Positions 1,511 through 41,130 of a stretch of DNA of 64,000 nt are shown in pieces. The notes under the pieces were generated by a model, which ran no database searches, was not told where the DNA came from, and saw only the letters and a program-made list of their open reading frames with translations. A program made the position numbers and the translations under genes. Position 1 is the stretch's first letter. Each line of letters opens with the position of its first letter. Origin of the DNA: Brachionus manjavacas (lineage: Eukaryota > Rotifera > Eurotatoria > Ploima > Brachionidae); contig JAHQIY010000004.1 of assembly GCA_019054805.1 (NCBI GenBank), positions 7,758,501 to 7,822,500 on the forward strand. Direction: 5' to 3'.

Positions 1511-1530
1511 TCCAAATTACGAAATTCTGA

Positions 1531-1785: not shown

Positions 1786-1829
1786 TTTTATTTTTTTTAA
1801 CTTCACAAGATTTTCTAGTCAATAAAATG

Positions 1830-3439: not shown

Positions 3440-3454
3440 AATTCCGTAAAAAAT

Positions 3455-10700: not shown

Positions 10701-11095
10701 AAAAATGAATTTTAAGTTTTAATAGAAAAATCAATAAAATATCAAAAATCAACAGCTATCAAAACGCAAAAGGGCTACGAATTGAATTATATTATTAAAT
10801 ATTAATTTTAAAAATTTAAGCTGCCAGAATTTGAAAATAAAAGTGGCATTAAATCTCTCAAAATTCTAATACAAAACCGGATAAGTTGATTTTAAGTGAA
10901 AAAAAGAGTTGAATGAGGAAATAAAATTTAATCTATACATAGGTTTTCTGGTACTTAATTTTTAAAAAGGTTTTTTTTAATTCCCCGATTTCTTGATTCT
11001 AAATTAAAATTAAGATTCTAAATTATTTAATACTATAATACTAAGTACGTCCTAATCAACGGGTTAAGTTGAATCACAAGTTAAAATAAGCGAAT
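7748..11095. other. AT-rich intergenic stretch without recognisable genes
   Basis: About 3.3 kb. The longest frame (10038-10352, minus strand) is a Phe/Leu/Asn/Lys-rich string with no domain and looks like chance. No repeat partner was noticed. Confidence 0.45.
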
Positions 11096-12045: not shown

Positions 12046-12620
12046 GTTTTCCTTTACTCTTGCACTGACGGAAAGCGTTTTTTGCTTACATTGATTTAGA
12101 CATTTTCAAAAAATTTTAAATTGATCATGGCAGGTAGAAAATTTTTAGTGAGAAAAAAAGTAAATTTTAGAAAGTTTTATTGTTTTTATTGATCAAAGAA
12201 GAAAAATGTTTTTAATCATATAAATTAAATTGATTTTTTTTTAAATCAAAAACATTAAGATAAAATTTGGCAGTAGATTTTAATTTTTATTTAAGTTGAA
12301 AAATTGAAAAATTATTTATTCCAAAATATTTTTCAAAATAACTTTGGATTTTAGCTAAATAAAATAGAATGATCACTTTTTTTATAGCCTTAACCGAATG
12401 GTTTACATAGAATAGATATAAAAATCAATAAAAATTTGAAGTTTAAAAAAAATTATAAAATCATAATATTTCGTCAATTTTTTAATGTAACATTTCATTA
12501 TAAAAAAACTCTTTGACTGACAATATAAAAACCCCAAAACTCGATTAATCTTTATTCGATAAAGAAATTTTTGACATTTGAAAAAAATTTTACTTAAATT
12601 TGAAATTTTTACACTAAATC
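12046..12620. other. Non-coding stretch downstream of CKAP5
   Basis: This is the 3' flank of CKAP5. Nothing else is seen apart from the candidate poly-A signal at 12551-12556. Confidence 0.5.
12551..12556 (-). terminator. Candidate polyadenylation signal of CKAP5
   Basis: AATAAA on the minus strand, about 65 bases after the CKAP5 stop codon. It is the first such hexamer downstream that I noticed. Confidence 0.45.
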
Positions 12621-18600: not shown

Positions 18601-21600
18601 TTCCATGGACTCTTCTGGCGAGTCGGCGTACAAGTCTTTTCGCTCAGCTGGTTTGGTGATCTTGGGTCCAGTGGTGGCCGGCTTTGGCGCAGGCGCCTGC
18701 TTAGCCGAGTATTCAACTCGGGCTTTTTCGATCAAAGGCTGAATTATGCTCACAGAAGTTGGCTTTACTTTTTGTAAGGCGCGCATCAGGTCGTTTGGAC
18801 CGAGCGCCATCATCAACGGCGCAATCAACTCTTGGGACTTGGTTCTGACCTCTGGGTTTCGGTCTTCCACAAAGCCGAACACACTTGGTATTATTGATTT
18901 AAGTTCAGGCGGCATTTTTCCTTTGCACTTTGGCAACGTCTGTGCCAGCCAAGCGCAAAGCTCCGCTTTAATATTCGGATTAGTGGCTGAGGAAAAAATT
19001 TCAGTCATCAGGTCATTTTCGAAAAATGGCGCAATGCCGCCGCAGTTTTCGAACCATGAATTAAGTGCCGAAACGGCTGTTTTGCGCAGCGCTTCTTTGC
19101 TGTCCGATAGAGCCTGGATCATGCCTGGTGCTAGGATCGAAACAAATTTTCTTCCTTGCGAGCCTAGTGCAGCGGCAAGTTTTTCACATATTTTAAGGGA
19201 GGCCGTGGCCAGCACTTTATTTGTATCGGTCAATCGTTTGTTTAAATTAGTAGGAAAATCATTTAGGTTAGCTTCGATGAATTTGTTTTCTCTTAAAATG
19301 ACCTCAATTTTTTCCAAAGCTGCCTGACGCTCTTTCCAATTTTTGTCATTCAACTGATTGATTAGATCCTCATTTAATTGTGAGCTAATGTCAGTTCGGG
19401 GAATGAGCGCTTCTTGCTGAAGCTGAGCTTGCATCGGATCCAATTCTTCTTCACCTCCGTTGGCGCCACCCGATGCCGAATTTGAACTGGGCACATTTTT
19501 GCCCCGAATAGGCGCTGGCGGTTTTTCGCCCTTGACTTTGTCGATCTCAGCATCGATCTGGTCCAGCAGTGCTGGTTTTTCCTGCTCAAAAAATGACCTA
19601 AAACTCGGACCAACATACATGTAGACTGTGCCTATTAATTGAATAGCTGCATTTCTTACACTGGCATTGCTATTAGCCAGAGCGCCTTTGATATGGTTCA
19701 AAATAAGCTTGACTTCGCATCCTTGAAATCCAAACTCTTTGATTGCTTGAGACAACCATAACAAGCAGTGTTCTTGATTTTTTGGATTTTTGGCTTCGAA
19801 AACGGATGGCAAGACTTGATTTACCACATAGGACAGAGTGCATTGGTCGCCAATTTTAGACAAGGCATTTTTGGCTTGTTCGGAGGCCTTCACGTCTCCT
19901 ATTTTGTCCGCAATGTCCGTCAGACAGTAAGAGGCAGATCGTTGACTAAATTTGAATCCAACTTCTGCCACAGAAGCTACTAGTTCCAGTCTTTGCTTTA
20001 ACACTTGGAAGTGAGAGTCCTTAAAGCCAGGCTTTTTGGCCAAAGTTCGCACTATTATCTGAACGGGAGCCTCGTCAGGAACCATTCTTTTGATACAATT
20101 GTTGAGTGTTTCAATGGAACTTTGTCTTTCCTTCCAATTTGAGCTGCCGAGACCATTGACACACTCGGCTCCGAATAATTCCAGAGCTTTTTCTTCAACT
20201 GTTTCTTGCACCATGTCGGGTTCTTCAGGTACACTTGGCTTTTTGGACTCGGCGCCTGATTTACTCTTGGCCGCTGCTTTCGAATCTGAAGATCCTGGCT
20301 TTTTCACAACTGCTTTTTTTTCCACATTGGCCTTGACTGTCTTTGTCTCGGCAGGTTTTGTCTCAGTCTTAGCCGATGCTGCTGGCTTGGCAGTAGCAGA
20401 AGCAGCTGCTTGTGCTTGGCCCGCTCTAGGCTCACCTCTTAGATTCAAAAGAATGCACTTATCTGAATATTCTTTTATTTTTTCCATTTTGAGCGGCTCA
20501 ATTTCGCCAGTCATTTGGAAGAAAATTTTTTCACCAAATGCCTTGTGCACTGCGCCTAGAGCTTCGGATGACGAGTCTCTTACACTCGGATCTGCCTCGC
20601 TCAAATTCTTAACCAAAGGTGGCATGTATTGTTTTAGGACTTTTTTGGGCAAGGTTGTCTGAGTGCTCATGGCAAAGCATCTTGCCAAAAAAAGACCAAC
20701 TTGCTGCCGAACGACCGGAGTTTTGTGACCCAATAGGCCCACGCATATATCACATATTGCCTCTAAGCTTGTCGACGGATAAATTGCGTCACATGCCTCA
20801 CGCAAACCTTCGACAATGTGTTGCTTTTTTTCTTTGAATTTTTCCATTATTGGCTCAATGCAAATGAGAGCATACTTGGAAAAATCTTTTCTCAAACCAC
20901 TGGCCAGACCAGTAACACATTTTGCAGCCACCAAGACACAATTTATGTTCGCATCCTTGGCTATGACTTTTTTCAAATCAGCAACTAGCTCGTGATAATC
21001 GGCAACTTGTAGTCGAGGACTTTTGGCCAATATGCCCTGAAGTGTGTCCAATGATTCTTTGCGCTCTTGCCATTTTTTGGCCTCCAATTTTTCTTTAAAA
21101 TCTTTGGGAAGTTTTGAGAGTATTTCGACCGGGTCCATCAAGTCATAGGGATCGACTGATTCCGAATTCACTTCGCTTGCTTCATCCACAGCGTCGCCTC
21201 CACCAGCTCCGCTCATCATCTTATTTTCCATCTCTTGTTCCATTTTTGCTTTCAAGTCCTGCTGAGACCTCAAAAAACGGGTCTGTCTCGGCTTTTCGGT
21301 GCTGGCCGATTTGAATCCTTCTTCCAATTCTTGCATCACTGTGGGCTTAAGTCCTTGAAATTGAGGCATAATGGCTTGACCAACCCATCTATACATTTCG
21401 ACAGCCATCAATTTAGCTTCGTCTCTTACATTTTTATCTCTGTCTTCCAGCAATTTTGGAATAAATTTGACTATAGGCTTTATTGGAAGAGTTTTGGAAC
21501 TGAATTCACTGATGGCTCGGCGCAATATTTCCAAACACGCTTGCACTATTTTTGGCTGTTTGTTCTCCAAACCTTTGATTAATTCTTCTTGGACAATTTC

Positions 21601-22061
21601 TTGTTTTTCAGCCTCTATGTACATTAAAATTATCTCGAAAGCTTTCTCTTTTATTTTTGCCTTTCCATTTAGACATTTTTGAATCAAACCAGGAACGACT
21701 TCTCCAGCCGTTCTAAAAAATTGAGTTAAACTAGAAAAAAATATTTTTTTTTCATTTACTTGGCAGCAGCAGGTATATTTTCAACATAAGCTAGGACAGC
21801 GTCTAGAGCCTTGTCTTTGGCGACTTCGTTTGAGTCGACGACAAATTTTTTTACTAAGCCCAAGTAAGGCGAATAAGCGGGGTTTTTCGGATCGTCTGCC
21901 CGGCCAAATAATTTACAGCATTCTTCGTAGCCTTCTATACGGGCTTTCCAATTCTTTAGGGAAAAAAAATTCAGGCAAATTTTTACACTTTTAGGCTAAC
22001 TGACCTTATGTTCACATTTGTCCTCTGTGGAGAGCTTTTTCCAGTCATTTTCGTCAGTCAT
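12621..22061 (-). CDS. CKAP5: CKAP5/XMAP215/ch-TOG microtubule polymerase, 7 exons, predicted 2167 aa
   Basis: Exons (minus strand): 22061-22005, 21953-21760, 21712-16989, 15783-14770, 14692-14394, 12889-12851 and 12797-12621; all junctions are GT/AG and the phase is consistent throughout. The N-terminus (DENDWKKLSTEDKCEHK, then NWKARIEGYEECC) matches the family start. Five TOG arrays are marked by their conserved Trp: residues about 21, 298 (KKWQERKESL), 609 (SNWKERQSS), 875 (KNWKERQAA) and 1190 (KWNFDVPRKDY). A Lys/Glu-rich linker of the kind that binds the microtubule lattice precedes TOG5. The C-terminal exons keep the helical domain (e.g. LRTVKTLVFHLAKAK) and a final coiled stretch ending ELIKNVRR. 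The protein adds tubulin to microtubule plus ends and works at spindle poles and centrosomes. Human CKAP5 is about 2030 aa, so this copy is complete and slightly long. The last two exons are short and follow a 1.5-kb intron filled with mobile DNA; they are the least certain part, supported by phase and by similarity to the human C-terminus. Confidence 0.95.
13296..13743. mobile_element. MITE, 448 bp, TA target-site duplication, in CKAP5 intron 5
   Basis: Ends are inverted copies: AACCGCAGAACGG on the left and its complement on the right, with inward similarity continuing for about 55 bases (ACGTAA and ATGTAAGAT blocks). A TA dinucleotide sits directly outside each end (13294-13295 and 13744-13745), as for Tc1/mariner-type insertions. 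There is no transposase. The interior is dense in GTAA/TTAC words. Confidence 0.85.
13806..13832. repeat. (AAT)n microsatellite
   Basis: About nine ATA/AAT units directly before the poly-A retroposon-like segment. Confidence 0.9.
13833..13923 (+). mobile_element. Retroposon 3' end with a 26-base poly-A tail
   Basis: A GC-richer segment ending CGCTATGGTAGCTATC then TTTCTGTG runs straight into 26 A residues (13898-13923). A related piece lies on the opposite strand at about 16547-16575 (GCTATGGTAGCTGTCTGT when read on the minus strand). A GC-rich body plus homopolymer tail is what a reverse-transcribed insertion leaves; whether it is a SINE or a truncated LINE cannot be told. Confidence 0.55.
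14230..14393 (+). pseudogene. Coding-like remnant with one stop, antisense in CKAP5 intron 5
   Basis: About 55 codons read AAEDLRAKFELEEYFFVGAY then IPRHQLVC, a stop, and IYAQADTTKFKVDIYLE. The residue mix is unlike random AT-rich translation. It ends against CKAP5 exon 5 on the opposite strand. It is probably part of an old mobile element; the family is not recognised. Confidence 0.3.
16696..16786 (-). repeat. Dispersed repeat, copy 2 of 3, in CKAP5 intron 3
   Basis: On the minus strand it reads GGTACTTGAAAAGGAGATGA then GCGCCTCCCCATTATCC, nearly identical to the copy at 29990-30102. The middle block CTCTGTGTCAGATC present in the other two copies is missing or replaced here. Confidence 0.8.
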
Positions 22062-25000
22062 ATTGAAAAAAAATTTATATTTTAATTAAATTGAGATAAA
22101 TTTTGTACAGGTCTATAATCAAATTGCTACTGTTTCACTTAAACTCTAAACAAAAAGTTGAAATGAGTTTAATCTAATGGACATTCAAGTTCAGATTAGA
22201 ATCGGTCAATTTGTCGAAAAATGGATATGAAAAAAAGAAAAATTAATTTAGGTTAAAAAAATTAGAAAATAAAATTTGAAGCTATTTTTTACTGAAGAGA
22301 CCAGCAAGCTTTGACTATGAATATTTAAAACTGTGCCAAGTCTACTAAATTCACTCGCGGTTTTCCCGTGGAAATAACACAAAAATCTAAGCCGAATATT
22401 TAACAAAATTAAAAAATTCTCTTGATAGTCTTTAATTATTTTGTTTTAATAATTTCAAGCAAGTAGGGTGAGGATAAAGAAGCGCTTGCAAATTTCAACT
22501 ATTATTCATTTAGATCTCCACTCTTGTATTCCATTGCAAATTTTTGCGAGTATCAAAGGATAGAGATTATGAAAACACATGCAAGAAGCTCACATACGCA
22601 CACACAAAATCATATTTTCAGGAATGAACTCTCATCAAGGCGCATTTTAATAGATTACCATTCGATTTTCGACTATTTCAGTAATCTTTCATTTCATGCT
22701 AGTTATTAGATCAATTCATATAATGAAAAAGATATTCTTTAAGTGAATACGGCGAATTATTTTGCATTATAATAATTTGCATGAATCAGCCAACAATATA
22801 AACTATTTTTATATTCAAACGCATACACTAAAACAAAGTGCTAAAATTTAGTAAAACTAAAATAACTTTTTAAAAGTTGTGAATTAGGTAAAAGTCGATG
22901 TAATTTGGGTCATTTGCAAAAATTTATGTTGATTTAATAATTAATTTTTTTTTTGGTTTAACCCATAATTGGAGTTGGCTTTAATTGCAAATAAATTATT
23001 TTAATATAAAACAACATTTGATCATAATTTTTAGGTGTCGAATTTTTTTTAATTCAAAATAACTCTAACAAAATCTTGGTTTAATTTTTTAGTTTAAATT
23101 AAATATTTAAAAATCCAAATATAAAAAAAATATATATTTTATTAATAATTAGGGTTTTGAGAAATTCAATTAAAAATTGAATAACTCTATTTCTAAAAGT
23201 TTAAAATTATTTCCGTGAATCCAACATAAAGGAATTGTCAAAGTTTCAATTCCAAAACCTCTGCAAATTGCACTCAATTTCAATTTCAAGGTTAATCAAA
23301 AGGCTAGTGCCCTTATCGTAGTAGAATGATTAGCACTTCATTTATTTAATTAATAAAATTAAGATTAAAATTTTTAAAATTTAAAATAATGAACTTTTAT
23401 AAAACTGCAATCAAGTTTTTTTTAAAATTTAAAAATTGATAAATTTATGTCTAATTTTTAAAATTTTTTTACAAAGTCAATATAGATTAAATTGATATTA
23501 TCGAAAATTAGAAGCTTGAAGGTTGCATTTACAGATCGATCTCTTGATCAAAAAATTATCATCGAAACTTCAAGATTATGGTCAACCTTAAAATCTTTGA
23601 CAACTTATATATTATTTCGAAAAAGATTTATCGTTTCAGAAACATTTTAGTGAAAATTATCAGCAAACATTTTAATATTTAATTTCTTAAAAAAAGGTTG
23701 TTCATTCTGACAGATATTACTTAGACGAACTTTATGAAATCTATTTGTAAAATATATTTTATTTCAATTTTGGCATTTAAAATTTTTAAAAATAGATAAA
23801 TTTTTTCAATTAATGTTAACAAACTAATATTGATAAAAATTTTAGCCATCATAAGTATCTATTATTTCTTCTGAAACAATTATACTATTTAAAATTTCCA
23901 AACCTCAATTAAAATTTTGCCATGTATAGTATTTCTTTTGTTATTTAGCATATAATATGAGATGCTTTTAGTTTATATATTTTTTGGATCATCAGATAAA
24001 ATAATTTTCTAGGAATATTTTTTTTAAAGCTAAATAAAACTAAAATTGAAAATGCTGAATTACAAAATTTATATTTACATTTAAATTTGAATGACTTTCA
24101 CCACCTGTAAAAATTCCCCAAAAAAAATTTATTACCTTCATCTGGAAAATACATGAATAAAAGGAAGATAAAAAAAGCTTGAAAAAAATCCATTAATAAT
24201 CTTAATTGGTATTATCAATTATTGGACAGTTTGTGTAAAGATAAAAAATTTAAATCTTTACACAAACTATAAAAAATTTTTTAAATAAAACAAGTTTACT
24301 TTGTATTCAAGATATTAATCATAAAACAAAAGTATCATAGGCTGAACACAAACAAATTTTTACGCATGTGTTTTCAATATGTGTTTATATATATAGTGGT
24401 ACAAGATTATTACTTGAGGGTAATAAAGCAAATTCCATTTTATTTTTTATCTAAAGTAAATTTATCAATATTTACTCTCTTAATAATTATTTTTTTAGAT
24501 TTAAATAATTTTTTTTTTAATTGTTAAATTTAAAACTGTTGATGAAAAATAAAGAAAATTGAAAAAATTTCTTTCATTATTTAATCATAACCTGAATCTT
24601 TTACAAAAAATTAATAAAATTGTTAAATTTTCTGAAATTTTTTCAATGAAGCAAGATTTTTTTTTCTCTTGAAAATATTTTATTGAGCTATTTTATTTTT
24701 TACAAAATATTTCCAATTTTAAATCAAAAGATTTATTTGCGACTTTTTTTTTCGAGAATAAAAAAAAACTTTCCATAAATTAGAAAAAAAATTGGCTCAA
24801 GGTTTATTTTTTATTAATTGATGAAACAATATTTTCCAATACAGAAATTAAAAGTTTTCATGCATTTACAAACAACTTAAACAATTTTAAAATTAGCAAT
24901 TAAACTAATGAATATTTTTAAAATTCCAACAATCAATTTTTACTATGGGTTTATTCTAATTGAGTAGCATCATTTGAATACAAACTGATAAAATTTATTA

Positions 25001-28000
25001 AATTTTACATTTGAATAGTAAAAGCGAATATTTTCTTTATTCAATGCCAAATAAGACAATTTTCAAAATATTAGCTTTAATTGGGTTTATTTACCTAAGT
25101 ATTTAAATCTATGCAAATTATTATATATGAAATTTTGTTCGCTATGAAGCGGGCTGAATTTTTTTTCCAATGCTAATCAATTTTATGCTTATTTAAAACA
25201 AACACATATTTAATTAAGAGTAATTATTAATATTAAAAAACTTGTTGTTATTTTTCTGGAAGATAATACGAATCCGCGATAAAATATTTTTTTTCTAAAG
25301 GTTCCGAACAATTCATTTTTCTATTTCTAAATCAGAGAAAAATCCTTAAATCCCAAGTATTTTGGTTTTAAAATTATTTCATGGAAAAATTAAGATTTCA
25401 GACGTTTTAAAACAGCTTTAATTAAATAACAGACTGGTTGGAAGCTCTTGATCGGTTATAATCTGATTTTAATTTTATCATCAGATTTGATTTTACATAA
25501 TATAGCTACTTAAAACTTTTTTTACTGTATCTTACTAATAAAAAGTGTAAAAGCTTATTTTTTAAATAAAAATAAAGAATCAATTTAATCCTTATTATTT
25601 TTTGATTTATAATGATATTTTTTTCTCATTTTTCAACTCAACTAAATGCAATTTTGTTCCTTAAAACAATTTGGTTCACATCTCAAACAAAAATTCCTTA
25701 AGCGAGCGTAATGCAGCTAATCAAGGTTCAAGCTTTTTTACAGCAAAGAAATTTTTGGCTTCTTAAAGTTGAGAAATATATTTTTTAGCATTATATACAA
25801 TCTAAAAGAATTAAAACAATATAACAAATTTAGATTTTTCAGATCGTAAGTGCTAAAAGGTATCATTTCACTCTCATTTCTGATGAGATGTATTTTTAGT
25901 ATTAAGGTTGATACCTTTTTTATAGAAGACTTTTTTTTAATGTACTTAAAAATTTTAAGAATTTTTAGGTATTTTTTTCTCTTAAGAAAAGAAGTTTGAT
26001 TAAATTTTCGAGACATTTGATTTATTGAAAATTTACCTCTTATTGTCTATCATTAGTCTATCTGTATCTGTTTATTCGAATTTCTTTTGCAGAAATTTTA
26101 AAGAAATTTTCGGTTTCAAGTTTTTGTTTAACATTTAAGATAGAGTTTCAAGTTTTATATTTTCGTTTACCAAATCGTTTTAATAAAAATTGTTTAAAGT
26201 TATTTAATGCTCATCATATCTGAATAGATTTCATTTTTTTCATTTTTAAGATTCCATCAATTGATAAATTTCGTGTGCTACAAATATTTAGCAAAATTGA
26301 AAGATTAATATTGAAAAATTAATAACAATTTAAAGAAATTATCTGCTAAAATTTTATTTAAATAGATAGATAGAAATATAATTATGTAAATGAGCCGATA
26401 ATTTTTAATATTCGAAAGCGATCAAAATTTTTCGTTTTTGACATTGACAATTGAGTTTGCTTAAGCTTAAAACTTTTGTTTTTTTTTCAATCATTTTTGA
26501 AATTTGTTTTCAGTTTTTTTAAATCATCAGTCTTGTTTCTGTTTTTCAGCACTCTTTAAAGGTATTAAAAGAAAATTGTTTTAAATGCCTTAAATCAATT
26601 ATTTATTAAATATTTTGATTTTAGGAAATAAATTTAGTTAATTGGTATGTACCTTATTTGACGGTAGACCCAAAAGTGTGGTCGGTTGAGCCACAAATAA
26701 ATGATTTAATTTAATAGTAGTTTAAAGATTTCCGATAGCTTATTTTGAGTTAATTATCGATTTTGATCATATTCTTCATTATGAATGTATAGATAACTCG
26801 GTATATTTTTTGTCAACTAGATTTTTAACTAAATTTTAACCAAAGATTAAACAATTTCGGCTTAAAAACTCTATTGGTAATTTGATTTTATGGGGTTGGA
26901 AAGTTTTTCATTCAAAATTAATTCAGCATGTAAATCAAAAAAAATCCATAATAAGTAAAAAATTATTAATTTTCATTTAACCTTGCCTAAGGGATCTAAA
27001 CTGTTTGATAAAATCGATTATTTGTTATTTATCTCTGAGTGAAAATCGGTTTTAAAATAATTCTTTGATAGAAATTCTCACACTTACAGATAACAACCAC
27101 ATGTATAATTTTGTATTCATTTATAGCAAAAAAATAAAGGAAATTAAATATTTTACAGCTATTTTTTGTTTATATTTCGACTTAATTATTTCTAAAAAAA
27201 TTTTCCAAAAAGTGTATACTGCATTGTGAAATAAATAATTACTAGAATACATTTCAACTTGCCTTCGATTGAAGCATATAACTCTCTGAATTTTTTCTGA
27301 TTAGAAAAATAAATAAAAAAAATATTAAAAAATTTCAATTAAAAATATATTTATTTCACATGCAAATTTTGATTTTATAAAAAGGAAAAAATTTCAGTTA
27401 TGACAACAATTTTATTTAACTAACTATGATTCTTGTACATTAAATTCATTTGAGTAAAAGATAATTTTAATTTCAAATTTCTCGATTTATTAACATCAGC
27501 AGTTTTAAATTTCATTATATGCCACTCATTGCCAAGATTCATCCTTCTAAGTCAACAAAAGTTTGACGAATATTAAATTTTTTCTTGTAGATAGGTTATA
27601 AAATAAATCTTAAACGAATAAATCATTATTTAAGGTTGATAATTGTACTAAAAAAATCAAAAACTGTATTCTCTTACTATACAAAATGACAATGCAATCA
27701 AGTAAAATATTGAAAACAAGTTTAACTTTTTGATTTTTTTAAATGAGTAACTGTCACTGAAATTTATTGAATTTTTAATTAATTTAGTTAGCGAAGCATA
27801 CATTTTATAAAAGAGAAGACTATCCGAATGACGACTTTTTTTACATTTTTTTTCACAAGAGATAAACAGTATTTTTTGTTTCATTCAATAATTTCGGGAA
27901 TAGTAATGAAAAACCAGGGAAATCAAAAATTCAAAACATTAATTAAACATAATTTCATTTATATATTATGTTTCTCATCTAGAGCTTGAAGTTAAATTTT

Positions 28001-28748
28001 ATTTTGAAAATAAAGTTGGTCCGTTCTGAGGCTTGATTAAAAATATAACATAAACGCCCTTTTCTCTAACACATCTAATTGTTCATATTTTCTCTAGAAA
28101 ATTGTAAGATTTTTCAAGTTTTAACATAAGGTAATCTACATATTTTGGTTAACCCTGTTCGATTAAGATTGATTTACTGATCTTTATAGCAACATATCTA
28201 AAAATCATTCGGAAACAATTATTCATTAGTCAGAGCCTGGATAATTTAAATGGATTATGGAATAGGCTCAATATTTGCTAAAAACTATTTATTTGATTTA
28301 TTAAATTGGGCTCAATTTTAAATTATTTACGAAATGATGATTTTTCAAGTCAAATTTTTATATAATTAAAAATTTTAATTATTTTAAAATATTGAATCTT
28401 GATTTAATGCATAATATTGCAAGTAGAAATTTAATGTCTAAAATAAAAGATTTATTCCCGAAAATCTATCAATTCCATTAGGCACACAAATGTCAATTCA
28501 ATTTTTTTTTTGCGATAAATTACTAATAGAAAATGAATTGAATGTTCAAAAAAGGTGAAATGACAAAAATGTAACAAGATATAGCATTAAAAATTTATTG
28601 ATTTTGTTTTTATTCTGTCAAATAATAATCATTAAGAAAATCTTAAATATTATTTTTTTATTTTTTGTCTATTTAAGTCGATTAGAAATTATTTTTAAAA
28701 TGCAAGCAAATAGTTCAACAAGGATTTTTTTTTAGAACCACAATAAAA
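22062..28748. other. 6.7-kb gene desert between CKAP5 and the first KChIP exon
   Basis: CKAP5 and KChIP are transcribed away from this interval, so both promoters should lie in it. Short ORFs (22524-22709, 25738-26016, 27657-27884) have noise composition and no domains. The only clear structure is the hairpin at 24228-24268. Confidence 0.5.
24228..24268. repeat. Perfect 15-bp inverted repeat (hairpin)
   Basis: Arms AGTTTGTGTAAAGAT and its exact complement flank an 11-base A/T loop. It has no U-run typical of a terminator and no neighbouring gene. It may be a cruciform-prone relic of a mobile element. Confidence 0.85.
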
Positions 28749-29031
28749 ATGATACATTCGTCACAGGCAAGTAATGTCAGAACTAATTATCACAAGTCTC
28801 ATTCATCAAACTATTCAAGAAGATCTACAGTTAATTCTGTACATCGACCAAACCAAGGAACAAGGGGAAATTCGATCAATTCATCTCTACTGGATGCAAA
28901 TGCTTTATACGATGAACAAAACAGACCAGAAAAAAATGGCGAAAAAAAATCTTGCTTTAGTTATGTAGGACTAAAACGTCAAATAACCAACTCGATCTTT
29001 AATGCATTGAGAAACATCAATCCACCCGAAG
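28749..29031 (+). CDS. KChIP alternative first exon 1 (94-aa N-terminus)
   Basis: Ser/Asn/Arg-rich start followed by [14 protein letters not shown] and [12 protein letters not shown], ending GAAG|GTAAAA in phase 1. A basic/Cys stretch followed by a short helix just before the EF-hand core resembles the longer vertebrate KChIP2/KChIP3 N-termini, in which Cys are palmitoylated. This is inference; no acceptor precedes the ATG, so it is read as a first exon. Confidence 0.7.
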
Positions 29032-32000
29032 GTAAAATAGTATTTTTTTATTAAAATGTCGCATTCTTTTTGATGAATATTAATTTTTGAATTGTATAAA
29101 AATTTATTTAATTTTGATAATTATAATGCAAGTAGGTTTTAATTTTTAAGCTAAAATTACATTTTAGGTTTTTTTGCAGTTTTTTTCAATTAAAGGCTAA
29201 AATTGAATTAAGTTTTGCTTTTGTTGTTTAAATTTATTTCAACAAAAAAAATCGGAAGTCTTCAATTTTGCTGAAAACAAAAATAAGAATTATTAAATTA
29301 GGCGAAAAGCATTACTTTTAAACTTTATAAAAATCATAAAAAAAACTAGTTTATCTAGGTAAATTTTGCAAATCACAAAACTACATTTTTGGTCTTATTT
29401 AAAATAAACAAAAAAAAAGCTTATAAAATCTTTGATTTTTTGATGCATAAAGCAGAAACGAAAATTGAATTTAAAAGTGTTTTTCAAGTGTTTGAACTAA
29501 ATAAATCTCAATTTCCGTGCCGTATTTTTGGCCTTTGTTTTATCACTTAGTATATGCAGCCTAATTTTTTTCTGTTGTTTGTTCCGCTTTTTATTATTAA
29601 TAAAATCTTTGAGGAAAAATATTTTTTTGGATGGCTCTGAAAGTTCCACAAATTAAAAACTTGTCTTTTCATTTAACAGGCTTTTTGGATTTATGGTTCA
29701 TTAAAAATTGCTCTTTAATTTTTTTAATTTTGAAATTTAATTTTAAAAGAAAAAAAATTTCACAATATAATACTAATCTAAAAATCAGATTTATTTTTAA
29801 TTTCCTCAATTTCAAAATAATTAAATTTTTTATAAAATTTAAGTTATGTAAAAATTGACAATTCAGGTAAAATGTTAAGCTAATTGAACAATCAAGAATA
29901 GTTAATAATCTTGGTTTGTGAAAAAATTAATATACATTTATTTGTTTGTAATTAATAAATTTTACCAAATTTTACTTTTGAAATATTTTGGTGTAAATGA
30001 TCAACTCGATTCAGTAGCCTCTGTGTCAGATCGAATCTGTTGCTAAGAAAGGTACTTGAAAAAGAAATGAGCGCCTCCCCATTATCCACTAGGATAGAAA
30101 AGAGAAAACTATTAATCAATAAATTCTACCAAATTTTACTTTTAAAATATTTACTTGTCCAGCATTATTTTTTAAGAAAAAATTTTTTCATCTTTTATTC
30201 TAACTAAAATAACAAAAAATTACGATAATTTTTTGGCAATTATTGTAAATTCTCGATTTTTCATTTTTAAACTTTAATGGTTTTTCCTTAAATATCATAA
30301 AATCTGGTTTAATCTTTATTTTGAATCACCAATGTAAATTTCTATCTTAAAACTCCTAAATTTTGATTTTTTTTGATTTATAAGAAAATGGAATGTCTGA
30401 AATTCTCAGTCGAATTCTTAGAATATATCAAATTTAAATTATTTAGCTCGAAAAAAACCTTATTTGTGTAAGTTTAAATTAAATTAAAAAAAAGAGTGTT
30501 TTGTTCTCAATTACTTAAAAGTAATAACCGAAAACAAATATTTGATTTTGAAACCAAGTAAAATCTTTGACTTAATCAATTTCGCATTTCTGTATTGTAA
30601 ATTGCTAGTCTGTAGGGAAAACGAAAACATATTGTTCTTAATAGAAAAATAATTAAAAGTTAAATTTGTTGAATGTTTTAGTCATTTAAAAAAATAAGGA
30701 AATTTTTGCATTAGAAAAAATCAAAAAAAAACTGTTTTACACTGAAGTTGGTTCAATCGAAAAATTAAATCAAATAAATTATTTTTTTACACTGATCTTT
30801 TTAAATTGTTTTTAATCTTTTAAGAAAATTGTCTTTCTTTTGTTTCTATTCAACTTCAGCATATAAGAACTTATATTTAAAAATTTTTCCAAAAGAAAAA
30901 TAAGTAAAGTTGAGTAATTCTTAGATGATATTTAGTAAACGTTGATAATTTAAAGTGTTTGTTTAACTCAAACAATTAATGTCACTTAAGCATTTTCCTT
31001 TATTTTAAAGAAAATCGACATTATTTCTTATTTAAAGTATATTGCATGGCCTTGATTATTATTTATTTAGAGGTCTATTATTATTAATATTATTTATTTA
31101 GGTTTTGTTAAAAGCATGTTAAAACCTATAAAACTCTTGTTAGTTTCATCCACTTTTTTGCCTGATGATCATGAGAAGTGTTATTAAAAAAATAGGAACA
31201 TGATTTACAGAATATTATTTTATTCTACATAACCTATAAATATTTCCTTATCCAAGCTGAAAATCTAATCTTTAGCTGCGAAAATTGGATTTTTGTACGT
31301 TGCCAAAATCAAATGTGCTTCTAATTAAAAACCACAATAAGCAAAAAGTTTTAAATTCTTGCGATTTTTGTTTTTAAAGTAAATAAAACTGATCATTATT
31401 TATGTGCCATTGATGCAATGATTTATCTTAAGAATTGATTAAAAATTGTAAACCTTTGATGAAATCAGGTCTAATTTGGTTTACAAAGTTGGATCGAATT
31501 AGCTCGATATTTTTCTGTTTTTTTTTCTATTTTGTTTTTTTAAAAATGGCGAATGAAGTCTAATTAGCTTAGATTAAATGCTCTTTGATACTTTGTTTAT
31601 GAATCAAAAAGAATGGCAAAACTTTTGGATCAATTGAAGTCGATATTTGCAATGAATGGTAATTAAAAATATTAAATTTTTCCATTTAACTTATTAGTTT
31701 TTTTTGATTGCTGATTATTTATTAAATTTAATTATAAAATTTAGTCAAAGAAAAGTCAAAAAGTCGATTGAATTGAAAAAAAGGCTAAAATAATTTAATC
31801 ATCTGCTAGAATTCAAATAAACTAAATCTTAATAATAAATTTATTCTCAAGGAATTTTCTGAAAACTTAATCGTTTTTGTAAATTTTAATTTTGAAATGG
31901 GCACCGCATTAACTACTATTAATTCAAATATTGTTTCACAGAAAGGTATATTTTAGATATTTTTTCAATCTGATATTTGGTTTTAAGTGTGTTCTGGTAA

Positions 32001-35000
32001 TGAATGCACGATTCCTTTGCTTTTTGCATGTTTTTGATGTAAAACCCTAGTAAGGTCATGTAAGTAATTAGCATCTTAGTTTAACTAGATATTTATAAGT
32101 TCTGTAAATTATTTACATAAAAAATATAACTATTTTTAAACATTTAGCTGCTTTAAGCTCAACAGCCTTATCCTGCATCGAACAAGTTTCGTTTAGATGA
32201 TTGAAATTCTTTTGAAATAGTTAATTTTTGAAATTTTTTAAATATTTTATCTATAAAGACTGCATACTTTTCAGCAAATTTTGAGAAAAACAAAATTCAT
32301 TTTGGTTATTATAAGTTCATAACCTGGAACCAAAACATAGTAATAATGATTTGAAATCACTTGCTTACACTCTTATCAAATTTAAATTTTTTCTCTTTTC
32401 TATTTCAATATCACAAAACGAAATTGTGTTTTATTGATAACATCGTCCGGAAATCGATTAAAACTTTTCTTGATTATTAACAAATTCTTATTTTAAATAT
32501 CACAAAGATCAGTAATTTACTTATCTAAATATTTTTGAAAATGATTTTAAGAGTTTTAGCTAAATAAGGAAAAAATGACGCCAATGTCTTTAGGGTTTTA
32601 ATTAAATTTAAACAAGTCTTCTGACGAATTTCAGTTTTCAGCTCTAAGTAAAAATTAAGTAGATTTCGAAGACATTAAAATTGTGGTTAATTAGCTCGAA
32701 TCATCGAGGAATTTTTCCAATACATTGAATTTTGATAGAATATGACTATTGCTTAACAAATTATTTTTTTTAAAGTCTGTTAGTATTCCCATATTTAATT
32801 TGACTTATTTTAATAATGAAAATTTTATTATTTGCTAGAGGGGAAAATAATCTTCATTAAATTTGCTTTTGGTTAGAAAAAATGGGCGCAAAGGAAAGAA
32901 AATTCTCAAGAACAATTATTGTCATTTTCCATAGCAAAGACATTTAAGCTAGCATTTTTATCCAAAATTAAGCTAGTAAAAAATTGCTAAACACAATCTT
33001 ACACAATCTAAATAACATTTGACACCCAAAATTAATTTTTTTTCTTAAGAAATTTTATATCTGCAAACAATTTGGAGGAAAGTAGGAATCACGTCGGTTT
33101 CTGAATCAAATTTCTTAGAATTTATCCTTCTAATCACTAAATGGATTAAAAATTCTCATTATCGTTATCAGTGCTAGAGAATCGATGCAATGATTTTTAT
33201 GAACAAGATCCATGTTAACTTTATCTTTTATTATTTTACTAAAAATTATTCAAATATTCGATTTTCTATGAACCTATTCAATTAAAAACTATTTTTAATA
33301 GTTTGCTTACGAAATATGAGAATAAATGTGAGTGCTTAAGATGCCAAAATAATCTTTATAAGCATGATTTAGATTTTAAGAGAAAAAAACCTGATTAAGT
33401 CAATTGGATTTTTATCTCAAGGCATTTTATTAAACTATCTGGTTTAATAGATTTAAGCAAAGGAATGCAGATATTTCGACATATTTTGTTTTAAGAATCA
33501 CAGTTATTGTTTCGTAATAATCAAAAGGAAATTTCATTCATGGTGATATTAGATTAGGTTTCGTCTTTGATAATAAATCACGAACAATTTTTTTTTAAAT
33601 TAATTCCTATTAAATACAAATATTTAGCCTCCTAAAAAAAATGCGTATATTAATTTTTAAATTAAAGCTCTGGAAATTTAATAATTTTTCAAAGCTTTTT
33701 AAATCTCATTTTTAATTTTAAAGCTAAATATTCAATGAATTGCTGAGTTACAAATAATTTTTTTATTGTTTAAAACAATTTAGCCAATTTTTCAAAGTAC
33801 ATATTTGACGAAAAACCGAAACTATTAAATAAAATATCTGGTTTACATATATTTTATATTAACATTTTCAAAATTTAGTTATTTTAGCTAAAATTTCAAA
33901 ATTCTTACACAACCAAACTTAACAAAAACTATATTTAAAAATGGAATCAACCAGTTCTTCAAAAAAAGGTTTGTTTAAGTGTGGTTTCTTAATTAAAATT
34001 TATATGAATTCGCAACTGAAGCGTCTTTTTTTAAAATAAATATCGAAATTTTAAATTTTAATTTTAATTTTTTAACCATTCAATTGAAAATGTACCAAAG
34101 AGCTAATGATTTTGTCTATCGATTTAAATCAAGTATTTATTAATTTTCTACTTGTCATCTCTCTCTCTCTCTCTCAATAATTTTAAAAATATGCTTACAT
34201 TTTTATTTTTGTTAATATATAATTTATTAGATGTATTTTAAAAGTTTACCGAGATGCATGCTAGTCTAGATAATTTTAATTTCAGTAAAACTGAGGAACA
34301 AACGCGTTAAATTTTTTTAAATTTTATTTAAATATGACACTCATTTGAAATCAATAATAATTAGTAGCAAAATTTTGAATTTAAATAGATAATTTCGCGT
34401 CAATTTGATTAAATAAAATTTGAAATATGTACTTTTTTTTATTTAAAAAAAGTGAAACAAACAATTAATTTTTAAAGTTCAATTTAAAACAAAGATTTTT
34501 TTTAAAGAAATAAATAATTAGAATTTAAAAGAATAATTTTGAAAAATAAAATTTAAACTCAAGTTTATCGATCCGATTTAGGACACTATATGAGAGAGGA
34601 AATCTAATTTTGCTTTATGATTAACTGGTATTTAATTTTTAATCTACCTAAATTCATTTTCTTAAAATAAATTGGTTTAATATTGGTTATTTTTATTTGG
34701 AAAAATTATTCTTTTTATTTAATTCAAAATTGACATATTCATTCTTTTAAATCAAAAATATTGATTTTTTTTATAAATGCTTCCAAAATGGATAAAGTCT
34801 AAAGCAATTTTGTTTTTAATCTATTTGAAATTAATTTATTAGTTAAATAGAAGCATTATGAAAAAATGCAGCTATGTTTTCAAATTTAATCAATCATTAC
34901 GAAATTTCATGATAAAAAAAATGATTAGGATTACACTTTTTGTGTAATTAAAATTCTTCTATATCATCGTATGCAAAATCTTATTTTAATCTGTAAATTT

Positions 35001-38000
35001 TTTTTGCTGTTTTATTTCCATTAGTTTTTGTAAATTTATTTTTAATCATGATCTATAGAAAGCATAACTTGATTTTTATAGAAAAATATTTTATGACATA
35101 AAATAAAAATTTTCATTGATAAATTATTAATTTTTGCATGACGCAAAATAAATGGAATTTTTTTGCAAACAAAAAAATATTTATGAATTTATTTGGCGGT
35201 AGTTTGGAGAATTTTAACAGAGCGAAGAATTTTTTCTTTTCTCGGCCAAAAACTTAAAGCGCATTTTAATTTTTTCAAACTGTAAAATTTAAAAGATTTT
35301 TAGTAATAAAATATAAAATATAAAAACTCTCTTAAGAAATTTTTTTCTTCGAAAAAAAATTTTAAAAAAATGCTTGTTCTATTAAAGATATTACAAACTA
35401 AATAAAGCATTAATTTGAGAAAGGTTTTCCTTAGGCTTAAGAGATAGGTATTCAAAGATTTTTAGTAAATTGACACTATATCACGATCTTGTTTTGTTTT
35501 ATTGATTCAAAAAGTAATTAATTCTTAGAGGAAACTGTATCCTGGAGCGCACCACGAAAATATCATAGATCAAGAAAAATTTGATAAAAAAATCTTACTT
35601 TGCTAGAACGCTTAATTGATACTCGTTTAAACCAAAAAGGAAATTTTCTTCTAACTAGAAAATTATTTTTTTGTAAAAGGATCTGAACGTTTGGTTTATG
35701 AAACTTTGAAAGTTTGAATTTCTTTTTCAACAGAAGAATAATAAAAACTAAGTTTCGTATGCAATTTATGGCAAGCGAATCTCTTGATAACTTTTTTATT
35801 TAGACATGGTAATTTCTTATTTCCTAGAATAGTTTATTACTGTAGAAAATATTCGCATAATTAAAAATGTGGATGAGAAACTTTTCCATGATAATTAAAA
35901 AATAATCTAATTTTATGATACTAATTTGATTTAAATTTTTCAGCTTACAAATTATTTTTAGAGTTTTTTTATTTTAAAAACTCTCTATTAAATTGTGCCG
36001 AAATGAGATTTTTAAATGAAGTCTAAACAATCCAACACTTTATCAAAATTAAATTCAACTTGAAAATTTAATAAACCTAATGTCTAAAAATTAAATTTAA
36101 TTAAATCAATTCAACTATTTCAGCATATAATTAATCACAAAAAGAATTTGTTGAGGACTGAGCTTAGTTAACAATTATTTTTTATTTAAGCTATTTTTTT
36201 TCCTTAAACTAGCGAAAAATAACTCAGTTTTTAAGTAATTTAAAGTCATCTTTTAGAGTGTTTGATATCGAATAATAAAAATCAATTTGACTTATCAAAA
36301 ATAAAACTCTTAGATAAAAATTGATGCAAAATAGACTTTTGTCGAAATGGAAATATTTTCCATTCCGAAGTTTGATATAGTTCAGAGTACTTTGTAAGCA
36401 TTTAGCGTTGGTTTTTCTTTCAATCAAATGTATCCTTATGCCAACAGATAATCCTTTAAGTTAAATGTTGGCAAAAGTTTCATCAGGCTGCTAAAGGATA
36501 AATATTTTGAAAGGAACAACAACATATGATAAGAATCCAATTATAAACATGCCAAAGATTTACAGAATTCCTTTTAAAAAATTTTATTAATGAAAAAATA
36601 TAATTGTTTTTCATGAGCATAGTTATTATCTAATTTTTAGTGGATTTCGATTTCAAAGTAAAAAAAAGCTCACAACAGCATTATTTTTATTTTATTTTCA
36701 AGGCAAATGCTTCAAAAATAGAGTAATTTTAAAAAAGCTTATTGTTTTTTCTAAATAGTATAAGATTATATTTGGAAAAAATAACTAATTGAAATTTATT
36801 TTTAATTTAGCATTTATTACTATTTGTTATTGGTGTCGAACCGATCTTTAATTAAGTTGAATTTTGTTGTTATCATAATTCTTGAAAGTTTATCAAATCG
36901 GGAATTAAAAAAATATAATTTCTTTTTAAATTTTAGAAGCAGAAATTTTTGAATAAAATTTAAAAAATTTAATGGCTAATTATTTAAAGATTTTGAGTAT
37001 TGAAAGCGTTTTCTCTTATTAAAGTAAAATTAATGAAGCAATCTTTTTATTTAATTGCCCTATAGACACCATCAATCATAGGTTTTGCTTGAAGCTGTTT
37101 AATAATTTTGTTGAAAATTATTTATACAAAATCGATATAACTCTAGGATTATTATTAATGCTGGATCAAATTCACGAAACTGTTTTCTAGTTGATTTAGC
37201 CTCTTATTTTGATGAATGATTTATTTCTATCCTTAATAGTAATCTGATTTATGAAAATACTGATGCTGATAGACTTTTAGTGTTTAGCAAAAAGCAAATG
37301 TGCAAAGAGTATTAGTATTTTCTACTTCATCCTCCTAATTTTAATGTAATAAAAATTTTGGCATTATCAAAATTAATTTCGCCTTTCAGAAAATTATTTA
37401 TCAAATACCATAATTTTCGGTAAACATTAAAGGCAGATATTTGAAATTCGATAGGTATAATGAAAAAAATTTTTTTTAGTTCTAGTGAAAAAATTGGCAA
37501 AAAGCATCTGTTTCTAAATTTTAGTTCAATTTAGCACTGAATTAGCTTTTTTTTTAGACTAAAGTAAACTATCTAATATTTACTCTACAGAAACGAAAAG
37601 TCGATTTTTTAATATTTTTTAATTCCTCAAGCAAACATTAATTTAGTGATGACTAAGTTCCTTTTTAGAAATTATATGAAATAATGGATAATTTATAAAT
37701 TTCACTTGATTTATTTTGTTGATGCGTTTGTTCTTCAGTTGAAAACTTAATTCGTCTTGTACAATAAAAAAAGTTTTTTTTCTCATTAAAAAGTGACTTA
37801 TCGCCATTATGGATGAAGACGACGATGTTTTAGGATACTATAGCTATGGTGAGTGTCTAGTCTTTATTATTTAATATACTACCAACAAAAAAAGAATGGA
37901 TATTAAGGTTAATGTGAAAAGCACTTGAAAAGTTGATTAAAAGTTTTATTAGAAAATAATTATTTTTATTAATCACCTATAGCATGCAAATATATTGGAA

Positions 38001-41000
38001 ATTATTCTATTCGCCAGAAATAATTTTTTTTAATAAAGAGAAGGAGAGAGATGACGTCAAGGGTAGCTTCCTAAAGTAAAATAAAAAAGTTTTATTCGAA
38101 TTTTGAGTTATAGTTATATCTTACAGAAAATTTTAGAAATATTTCAAATTTGTCGCTTCTATTATTTTTTTTGAAAATCGGAAATTTTTTATCAGAATTT
38201 TATACAAAGTATCAGTAAGAATTCTTTATTAAGATACCTAAAAATTGCAAAAATATTATCTAAAAAATATCAGGTATATTCTTTTAATTATTTAACAGAT
38301 ATAAAAATTAAAGTAAAAATTAAAAAAATCAAGCTGATGCAAAATTTTAATTTGCTTGATTTAATTCTAACACTTTAATTAAAAACAAAATTAAGATGAT
38401 AATACACAAATGTGAACAAAAAGAGAGAGATGATTATTAAATTATTTCCATGGAATGAAAGTTTTGATTCAAAAATTTAATTCAGAATTAAGTTTCTTCT
38501 TTTTAATTTAAAAAAATATTAGAAGTGTTTTAAACCTTTAAGACAGTTTAATTAATTTAAATTATTGATAAAAAAGTCTCATAAATTATCAGTTTGTTTT
38601 TTGGAATCGGTAAATAAACAGAAAAGGATAGGAAATATCAAGACAGCAAAGGGTAGCAAGTGTTCAAGATTTAAAAATCAAAAAAAAAATTTCAAAGACT
38701 TGTAGTTCGATAATAAAATGAAAAATAAAAATGTGAGATGCGCGAATTCAAAATTTAATTAGATTTTAAAAAATATAAATTTTATTAATCAAGGTTAAAT
38801 GACCAAAAATTCCCTTAGCGTGAAACAATAACATTTTAATAAAGATAATTAAAATTATTTTCAAAGAGAAAAATTTTCATTCTTGGATCTTTAATTCATA
38901 AATACACAATTAAAAATTATAAAAAATAATCTAAATTTTTTCATGATTTTAAGTAGTTACGGAATGTGATAAAAAAAGTTTGTATAAGATTTAATCAAGA
39001 ATCTATTTAGCCAAAACATTCCTTTTATTCTTGTTAAACGACGTTTTAAATTAAAAACTTAAAAAATTTATTTACCTCTTAAATTTACATAACATATTGG
39101 ATCGCATACAAAATATACTCACATAATGTGAACATCATTTATTAAAGCTGATATATGATCCCAAGACTGAAAGCAGTATTCACCTTGATTAAAAAAATGT
39201 GGCCGAAATTTATTTTATTAAGAGACAAAAATAAAAAAAATGTTTTTTTTGAAATATTTTTAGAAAGCGTTGAAGCTTTGAATTTGCTTAAAAAAATAAT
39301 CTTAGCCTTTTTCACTTTTTCCAATGTATTTTTTTGGATCAAAAAATTTTCATTAATGTCTTTTAAATCCTATTCGTGTAAAAAGTTAGCAAAGATGGTT
39401 CATATAATATACGTTTTTTTACTAAAGCTGCTTGGTTTTAAAAAAGATTAACAACATTTTAGCCTTTGTCAATTTTCAGAGATTACGGAAAAATGGCTTT
39501 CATAAATGATCCGAGTGGCCAGAAACTTGGATCAAAATAAGTTTTTGAATTAATTATAGAACCAAATTAGCTATGAGGCGTACAAGTGAAACTACTTTCG
39601 AAAGAATTTATTCTTATTCAAAGTTCAAAATAATTAAAAGCTGATAATTGCTTTAAATTTATAGAAAAAGCTTTTTTGTCATAAATTTTTGGCTCTTACA
39701 AATAGAAAAACTATCAAAACTAATTTTGGATTTTTATTGATGCCATTATCATCAATTATTTACATTGAGAAAGCAGCAATTCATAAAATAGTTTTCCACT
39801 CTTGATAAAGAATTGCTGTGAATTTAATTACTAAACGACAAATTTCAAATATTGACTAAAATTCTTTAATTTAATGCCATCTAAAATTTGCTCAATCCAA
39901 TACATAGAGTATATACTTCCTCCTTCAAACTTAATTTCAAATTGACTTTAAATAATGTTCCGGAGAGGTAAATATTTTTCACTTACTCAATCGAAATTGG
40001 GCTTTCTTCCTTAAAAACTAGACTTTAGTTGAGAAAATTGAAAACACTCAAGGATACTTTTAAATTCAGATTTTGTTTTTACGGAAGTTTATATTATTTT
40101 TGATTTCTTCTTTATTATCGAGAATTTTTGATATTAAAGCTAGAGAAAAAGAGTAAAATATTTACATTTCAATCCTAATGAAAAATATTGGAAACAGTTC
40201 TACAAGCAGTGGTAGTTTACCTAGAAATGGCGGTATTTTTCGAAAAATTAGACTGAGACGTATACAAAAGAGTTTTTTTAGATATTTATGTGCTTTGATG
40301 CGGATGCACCCATATTTAATTTGATCTAAAAAAAATTTAAATTTAATGATACTTTTTAAAAAGAGAATGAATATGAGGAGAATTCACAAACCATACTGCG
40401 CTATAAACCAAGACCAATAGAGGAATTGGTCAAAGAGACCCGTTTTACCAGAAAAGAGATTCAATACATGTATCGAGGATTTAAACAAGAATGTCCCAGT
40501 GGAATAGTTACTGAACAAATGTTCAAAGAAATTTATTCCCATTTTTTTCCTCAAGGCGGTGAGTTGACAACGTAAAATTTTTAATTATTGCTCCACTAGC
40601 CTTAGTTTTTTCCTTCAGAATGTTCAAATTATGCTCGGTTAATCTTTGCCACGTTAGACCAAAACTCAGATGGTACAGCTAATTTTGAAGATTTTCTGGT
40701 GGGTTTATCTATATTGTCACGTGGAACAATCGATGAAAAACTAAGGTGGATTTTCAGTTTGTACGACATAAACAAAGACGGTAAAGTGACCAAAGAAGAA
40801 TTACAACTGGTTATAACTTCAATTTATGAGCTAATGGGAAAATTTACCAAACCTCAAATAGATGAAAATGCACCCAAGCAACATGTAGAAGTTGTTTTTA
40901 AAGTAAAGCTGTTTTTAAAAAAATAATTTTTTTTTGATTATTTTTTTAAAGAAATTTAATTCAAAACAAGATGGTGTAATCACCATAGAAGATTTTATGC

Positions 41001-41130
41001 AGACGTGCTATAATGTAATTTTTGTTTTAATTGAGCAAAAATTTATTAAAAAAAATTCAATCAATCAATCTTTTTTGTTAAGGATGAATCAATTTTAAAT
41101 TCAATGTCAACGCTAGATACGGTTTTTTGA
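28749..41130 (+). CDS. KCNIP: KChIP-family calcium sensor (Kv4 channel-interacting protein), shared core exons plus alternative first exons
   Basis: Core exons are 40364-40558, 40619-40902, 40952-41014 and 41083-41130. The core reads [33 protein letters not shown], then EF-hands and ends with DESILNSMS, all close to vertebrate KChIPs. EF1 is degenerate (CPSG), as in the family; EF2 is [14 protein letters not shown]3 is canonical [14 protein letters not shown]4 is [12 protein letters not shown], having lost the usual first and third ligands. The core starts with AG, so it needs an upstream exon ending one base into a codon; each of seven candidate first exons does this. With the longest first exon the protein is 290 aa, with the shortest 200 aa. 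KChIPs bind the Kv4 N-terminus and control surface expression and inactivation; the variable N-terminus sets membrane attachment and gating effects. Candidate AATAAA signals lie at 41161 and 41261. Confidence 0.92.
29032..29989. other. KChIP intronic sequence
   Basis: No exon supported. The plus-strand frame at 29631-29858 becomes Phe/Lys/Asn-rich and has no phase-1 donor. Confidence 0.4.
29990..30102 (+). repeat. Dispersed repeat, copy 3 of 3, between 36-bp direct repeats
   Basis: Carries CTCTGTGTCAGATCGAATC and GAGCGCCTCCCCATTATCC like the other copies. It is bracketed by near-identical 36-base direct repeats, 29954-29989 and 30118-30153, that contain ACCAAATTTTACTTTT. Those are longer than normal target-site duplications. 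Confidence 0.8.
30154..31612. other. KChIP intronic sequence
   Basis: About 1.5 kb of AT-rich DNA with nothing recognisable. Confidence 0.4.
31613..31658 (+). CDS. KChIP alternative first exon 2 ([15 protein letters not shown])
   Basis: Fifteen codons plus one base, ending AATG|GTAATT in phase 1. The peptide would form a short amphipathic helix. Too short for proof; supported by phase, donor and its place in the series. Confidence 0.5.
31897..31945 (+). CDS. KChIP alternative first exon 3 (predicted N-myristoylated)
   Basis: Reads [16 protein letters not shown] and ends AAAG|GTATAT in phase 1. Gly2 with Thr6 fits the N-myristoylation pattern. Vertebrate KChIP1 also begins MG and is myristoylated, so this is the best candidate for a KChIP1-like, membrane-anchored isoform. 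Confidence 0.6.
31946..33940. other. KChIP intronic sequence
   Basis: No additional phase-1 first exon was found. A frame starting [10 protein letters not shown] at about 32881 lacks a G|GT donor before its stop. Confidence 0.4.
33941..33968 (+). CDS. KChIP alternative first exon 4 (MESTSSSKK)
   Basis: Nine codons plus one base, with A-rich context before the ATG, ending AAAG|GTTTGT in phase 1. The donor is weaker than the others. Ser-rich, no lipid signal. Confidence 0.45.
33969..37808. other. KChIP intronic sequence with a (CT)n tract
   Basis: 3.8 kb without a supported exon. The only simple repeat is the CT tract at about 34157-34176. The minus-strand frame at 36224-36427 is noise-like. 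Confidence 0.4.
37809..37848 (+). CDS. KChIP alternative first exon 5 (acidic [13 protein letters not shown])
   Basis: Thirteen codons plus one base, ending TATG|GTGAGT in phase 1 with the best donor of the set. The peptide is strongly acidic with Tyr, and its G/C use (GACGACGAT) stands out from the AT-rich background. Confidence 0.65.
37849..39154. other. KChIP intronic sequence
   Basis: Nothing recognisable. Confidence 0.4.
39155..39434 (+). CDS. Possible KChIP first exon with hydrophobic N-terminus (weak)
   Basis: A 98-codon frame, long for this intron, ends in [14 protein letters not shown] with a possible phase-1 donor TTG|GTTTTA at 39434. A short form could start at 39395. A hydrophobic N-terminal helix recalls vertebrate KChIP4a, whose membrane-spanning N-terminus suppresses Kv4 inactivation. 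The donor is poor, much of the upstream frame is Phe/Lys-rich like chance translation, and an opposite-strand frame overlaps it. Confidence 0.25.
39955..39967 (+). CDS. KChIP alternative first exon 6 (MFRR)
   Basis: Four codons plus one base, ATGTTCCGGAGAG|GTAAAT, phase 1. The non-AT codons CGG AGA and the good donor argue for it, but four codons could occur by chance. Confidence 0.4.
40178..40232 (+). CDS. KChIP alternative first exon 7 (Ser/Gly-rich, closest to the core)
   Basis: Reads [18 protein letters not shown], ending GGCG|GTATTT in phase 1, only 131 bases before the shared exon at 40364. It is the most proximal start and so may serve the shortest primary transcript. Confidence 0.6.

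Follow-up and report, generated by a model that had tools for sequence, protein, structure and literature searches.

The KChIP gene and its candidate first exons

The 64,000-nucleotide window analyzed here is positions 7,758,501 to 7,822,500 of Brachionus manjavacas contig JAHQIY010000004.1 (coordinates below count from its first letter; a slash within splice sites marks the exon boundary). It contains a gene for a KChIP, a calcium sensor that partners with the potassium channels of nerve cells, and this gene probably has several alternative first exons feeding one shared core. The core consists of four plus-strand exons, 40364..40558, 40619..40902, 40952..41014 and 41083..41130, the last ending in the stop codon TGA, and the encoded protein reads ENEYEEN...STLDTVF. 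When this protein was searched against the PDB, the top chains were KChIP2, 4, 3 and 1 (E 2e-70, 9e-68, 1e-67 and 2e-65; 239.6 to 223.7 bits) compared with 162 bits (E 1e-46) for NCS-1, and it was nearer to the KChIPs than to NCS-1, hippocalcin or recoverin. Pfam detected EF-hand_7 (E 3.5e-17) together with other EF-hand models above cut-off. Judged by its sequence, the core is a KChIP (class E of the neuronal calcium sensors).

The first shared exon (acceptor taaaaag/AG) begins two bases into a codon, and a TAA at 40357-40359 lies in the frame of the core just 5' of 40364. Owing to this split codon and in-frame stop an upstream exon is required, as an earlier note on this DNA had recognized. 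That note had proposed at least seven alternative first exons, and all seven ATG-initiated frames were found where it had placed them, each reaching a phase-1 G/GT donor. The seven, all on the plus strand, are exon A (28749..29031; 94 codons and a further base, MIHSSQ...NINPPE, a basic sequence with a single Cys; donor GAAG/gtaaaa), the amphipathic exon B (31613..31658; AATG/gtaatt), exon C with a myristoylation-type start (31897..31945; AAAG/gtatat), exon D (33941..33968; AAAG/gtttgt), the acidic, Tyr-rich exon E (37809..37848; TATG/gtgagt), the minimal exon F, MFRR (39955..39967; AGAG/gtaaat), and exon G (40178..40232; GGCG/gtattt). Exon C begins MG with Thr at position 6, which we take to be a myristoylation motif. 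All seven frames stay open when spliced to the core, and all seven, exon A included, have an in-frame stop upstream.

Phase-1 donors exceed chance

As the earlier note had selected its candidates by phase and donor, the other two phases provide a natural control. In positions 29,032 to 40,363, an interval that excludes exon A, we counted distinct G/GT[A/G] (G/GTR) donors that an ATG-initiated frame of 12 to 300 bases reaches before any stop. On the plus strand the counts in phases 0, 1 and 2 were 1, 8 and 1. Two of the eight phase-1 donors belong to 40178 and the rest to 31613, 31897, 37809, 39955, 37984 and 35138/35183; exon D has a GTT donor and hence is not in this set. In 1000 order-3 simulations the means by phase were 2.6, 2.7 and 2.7, at least eight phase-1 donors arose in 0.9% (P 0.009), and the observed phase skew arose in none. 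The expectation from 167 strand-kb of real noncoding rotifer DNA is 1.8 phase-1 donors (Poisson P 6e-4). No phase-1 skew was seen on the minus strand (0, 1 and 2 donors), in the adjoining 22,100-28,700 (2, 1 and 2; this stretch is itself within the noncoding set) or in the 6 kb that precede another KChIP-like gene, described below and located on contig 4 (0, 1 and 2). Hence by the phase, simulation and noncoding controls there are more candidate upstream exons in the phase required by the shared acceptor than chance provides. About two of the phase-1 G/GT[A/G] frames should nevertheless be chance, and for that reason the figure of "at least seven" was not borne out; 33941 and 39955 moreover fall in the chance range.

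In a second assay, frames were scored with a simple gene model trained on 51 stretches of the same genome (window positions 1-20,000 and 41,301-64,000 plus fetched loci), which supplied 74 clean introns of median length 57 bases. The score, in nats, combines start context, coding and donor. Within the 11.3-kb stretch (163 ATGs), eight frames of at least 6 nats were in phase 1 versus four and five in the other phases; at 7 nats or more there were five versus one and one, both of the single frames being other exits of 37809. The mean of 300 simulations was 1.3 frames of at least 6 nats, with a maximum of five. From a strict control of real noncoding DNA, the numbers expected in phase 1 are 1.1 for a threshold of 6 nats (P 2e-5) and 0.66 for one of 7 nats (P 6e-4). 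Five of the eight phase-1 frames at or above 6 nats were on the earlier note's list and three (39493, 37984 and 36347) were not.

Strength of the individual exons

Of the seven listed frames, only 28749 and 37809 exceeded every real-noncoding null frame (highest 10.5 nats) and the 99th percentile of the simulated maxima (12.7 nats). Exon A scored 28.6 nats, 21.6 of them from its coding part, and its guanine plus cytosine (GC) content of 35% was equalled by none of 5000 random segments; exon E scored 15.5 nats, 9.5 of them coding. Both are near-certain coding exons. Each matches the genome once, at itself, and is thus single copy, a result that disposed of a repeat origin. Tandem duplication of the first exons was also rejected, as no repeat family spans two of them.

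Exons G (8.8 nats) and C (8.7 nats) are likely coding first exons. Their scores are comparable to those of known short first exons of other genes of this genome, SNRPG-like (8.8), guanylate cyclase (9.8) and Kv4 (14.1 nats), two of which belonged to training stretches. Exon B (6.9 nats) is a possible first exon; two out-of-frame upstream ATGs, the frames of which extend beyond its start, speak against it. Exons D (7.0), B and F (5.3 nats, nearly all donor-derived) score in the range of chance frames, and the earlier warning that the shortest frames may be chance hits was right for MFRR and MESTSSSKK. GC content was raised for 39955, 40178 and 37809 (P 0.02, 0.031 and 0.036) and was not raised for 31613, 31897 and 33941 (P 0.10-0.18).

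Some frames outside the earlier list may also be real exons. These phase-1 frames are 37984..38062 on the plus strand (MQIYWKLF...RDDVK; donor AAGG/gtagct; 9.6 nats), 39493..39514 on the same strand (MAFINDP; donor CCGA/gtggcc; 11.5 nats, yet with an atypical donor lacking G at -1), 36347 (6.2 nats) and 34090 (5.6 nats). When the gene model was run over the window with no phase rule, it took exons A and E as initial exons, beginning genes at 28749 and 37809, and spliced 40178 to 40364. Apart from those two it predicted no further plus-strand gene over 12 nats from 22,061 to 40,178. Its silence on the remaining frames means little because the model allows only one start per gene.

Other KChIP-like genes and Kv4 in the genome

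The genome searched comprised 114,169,980 bases in 61 contigs and gave 44 matches to the core, three within the KChIP gene and 41 elsewhere, of which 11 (L037-L046 and L061) were examined. One of these, L061 (contig 4, 6.81 Mb), gave 100 bits to the KChIP gene, 87 to KChIP2 and 83 to KChIP4 versus 67 each to NCS-1 and neurocalcin. Together with L062 and L063 it makes up another KChIP-like gene, a divergent one, at about 6,808,100-6,808,901 (minus strand). The notion that the window holds the only KChIP in the genome was rejected on this evidence; the odds given below for the first exons are unchanged by it. A neuronal-calcium-sensor-like locus on contig 5 (L042, about 843,284-843,823) scored slightly higher with KChIP4 (107 bits) than with neurocalcin (94) and fell clearly into neither class, another (L040) was close between the classes (neurocalcin 107 bits, the KChIP gene 100), and the remaining eight leaned to NCS-1 or neurocalcin. 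By these scores, and with 11 of the 41 other matches examined, the gene at 40364 is the one clear KChIP and not the sole KChIP-like gene.

The contig-4 gene has a single predicted first coding exon, MSVNVNINNQ...RDWNS, which ends in phase 1 at G/GTA 48 bases ahead of the next (core) exon and so illustrates, in the same genome, the form that a phase-1 upstream partner takes. When exon A was compared with it, P was 0.074 if anchored at the junction and 0.49 unanchored.

A Kv4 partner is present in the genome. The Shal N-terminal motif, the KChIP-binding N-terminus of Kv4, was found at two places, both on contig 15; from one of these sites the gene-model prediction extends into a Kv4-like channel whose sequence starts MASVAAWLPFARAAAIGWAP. 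The two copies of this first coding exon of Kv4/Shal, at 729,748 and 744,226, are separated by 14.5 kb and point in opposite directions. The pair looks like a recent inverted duplication, because the translated flanking noncoding letters of the two copies agree too.

Comparison with vertebrate KChIPs

Mammals are described as making 17 variants from four KCNIP genes (PMC3973911), and published accounts have the KChIP N-terminus setting a cytoplasmic, myristoylated, palmitoylated or membrane-spanning state and altering Kv4 trafficking and gating (PMC3973911, PMC6104694, PMC12823592). The rotifer gene shares with mammalian KCNIP1-4 the same core family and a common core behind several alternative N-terminal exons, these being candidates here. 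It differs in being one clear KChIP gene, in having four core exons instead of seven, in packing its candidates within 11.6 kb and, on inspection by eye, in lacking a transmembrane-type N-terminus among them. The candidate N-termini are chemically as varied as the mammalian ones, from which any differences in effect would be extrapolated.

All seven first exon plus core proteins were searched against the PDB. With exon B the KChIP4a score rose to 234.2 bits (230.0-230.8 for the other isoforms), and with exon E that of the KChIP1 chain 7w6n rose to 225.5 (220.0-222.3 otherwise). Exon G gave the highest scores for two chains, 241.2 for 7ukh of KChIP2 (238.1-239.8 otherwise) and 232.7 for calsenilin (229.6-230.8 otherwise). 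Likenesses were also assessed by a shuffle test that allowed the best of six vertebrate N-termini. Exon B aligns without gaps with VKLLEQFGLIEAGLE of 3dd4, the KIS/transmembrane N-terminus of KChIP4a, although it has no membrane span ahead. An anchored test against KChIP4a alone gave P 0.002-0.006, but homology is not claimed because P was 0.055 over the six isoforms. Exon C begins MG as does the myristoylated KChIP1a (P 0.51). Exon E has YYSY (P 0.14) at the place where KChIP1b, myristoylated and with an aromatic insert, presumably has YYQY; the rotifer Tyr-rich stretch has its own ATG. These single-exon likenesses are leads rather than evidence of homology. It is doubtful, though conceivable, that they reflect an ancient toolkit in which KIS-type (31613), aromatic KChIP1b-type (37809) and myristoylation-type (31897) alternative first exons predate the rotifer-vertebrate split, vertebrates having later spread them over four genes.

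Weighing the explanations

Several alternative first exons on one KChIP core are, in our judgment, the probable explanation of the locus, with phase, strand, the neighboring stretch, the stretch upstream of the paralogue and noncoding DNA as the controls that carry it, and with the KChIP identity of the core and the presence of Kv4 as further support. Our best guess at the real set is 28749, 37809, 40178 and 31897 plus one or two others. The earlier observation is thus partly confirmed: its coordinates, phase and excess as a set stood, whereas the list taken one exon at a time did not, as only 28749 and 37809 exceed the nulls individually.

Several results weigh against this explanation. A laxer noncoding control, which may still contain short real exons, expects 2.9 phase-1 frames at 6 nats and 2.3 at 7, which makes the scored excess weaker, and the strict control masks gene-model exons in the control and not in the target. 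When every G/GT donor is counted the excess is also weaker (11 versus 6.6 simulated, P 0.085). The shared acceptor at 40364 is weak (2.5 nats, slightly below the 10th percentile of trained acceptors), and the acceptors to which the gene model instead joins 28749 and 37809 are implausible. Exons G and C, like some other listed frames, score below frames 39493 and 37984. None of the shuffle tests against vertebrate N-termini was significant (B 0.055, E 0.14, G 0.28, and A, C, D and F 0.34-0.61), and no PDB match was returned for the N-termini of A, B or C when each was searched with 17 core residues (three of three).

Part of this evidence would also fit a gene with only two or three real first exons (28749, 37809 and perhaps 40178), the rest being chance ATG-to-GT runs in an AT-rich intron. 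Just these three are used by the gene model, 28749 and 37809 alone exceed the nulls individually, the all-G/GT excess is the marginal one given above, and frames outside the earlier list score as high as those on it. However, such a gene would leave eight phase-1 G/GTR donors against one and one, a skew missing in four other stretches or controls, and the model on which it leans admits one start per gene; we regard it as rather unlikely. A single distal promoter, with the short exons as alternative internal exons chosen by splicing behind an untranslated leader, is improbable. Usable acceptors do lie 5' of exon A (28736, 4.0 nats) and exon C (31852, a strong 7.0, 45 bases away), but the best within 80 bases of exons E and F are weak (3.9 at 37739, 70 bases away, and 1.7 at 39908), and the protein outcome would be unchanged in any case. 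It is least probable by far that exon 28749 belongs to a separate, unrecognised gene and that the KChIP gene begins near 40178. Exon A is 11.3 kb from the core, beyond all 74 trained introns (longest 3,970 bases, from loci mostly of 3-10 kb that were unable to show long introns), and a PDB search with its stretch by itself gave no relative. Yet it is on the right strand and in the right phase, no predicted plus-strand gene over 12 nats besides 37809 lies between it and the core, and its junction end slightly resembles the first exon of the contig-4 KChIP-like gene at the anchored P given above.

If the array of alternative first exons is real, several promoters across about 11.6 kb would each give rise to transcripts headed by a short coding exon particular to that promoter. 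That exon would end one base into a codon, and its phase-1 donor would be joined to the single acceptor at 40364, skipping the intervening DNA. As all donors would use that acceptor, the isoforms would share the EF-hand core and differ only at the N-terminus. Given the acceptors at 28736 and 31852, exons A and C could come after an untranslated leader exon. By analogy with mammals, the N-terminus would decide membrane attachment and tune Kv4 trafficking and inactivation. The candidate array seems to be an invertebrate case of the alternative-first-exon KChIP gene known from vertebrates. Were the exons transcribed, one compact locus would supply a very small animal with several KChIP N-termini whereas vertebrates spread 17 over four genes, and one could ask whether N-terminal diversity predates the vertebrate gene duplications. 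Gene editing has been published for Brachionus manjavacas (PMC10395877). A 20-base piece of the mlh3 repair template given in that paper matches the genome searched here exactly once, with three mismatches at two further places, which fits B. manjavacas or a very near relative.

Searches beyond the locus and neighboring features

A search of freely accessible literature did not turn up any description of the first exons of a rotifer KChIP, and no relatives of the core were confirmed in the viral_contigs and genome_contigs collections. An expressed sequence tag study of B. plicatilis is cited for the lack of a conserved trans-spliced leader and for a mean 5' untranslated region of 52 bases (PMC1925144). 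The bdelloid spliced leader had no matches in the whole genome with three mismatches allowed.

Elsewhere in the window, positions 1-940 hold 9.6 tandem copies of a 98-base unit (98% matches), which in the minus-strand reading of the gene model give repeats of MDERLTRVEEKVTR. At 5618-7756 (minus strand) a 712-amino-acid open frame has the look, by eye, of a multi-span membrane protein, with no Pfam match at E 0.001. Ahead of the first KChIP exon, 22062-28748 is a stretch of about 6.7 kb with no predicted gene over 12 nats, and its minus-strand neighbor is an XMAP215/CLASP-type TOG gene (PF21041, E 9e-89).

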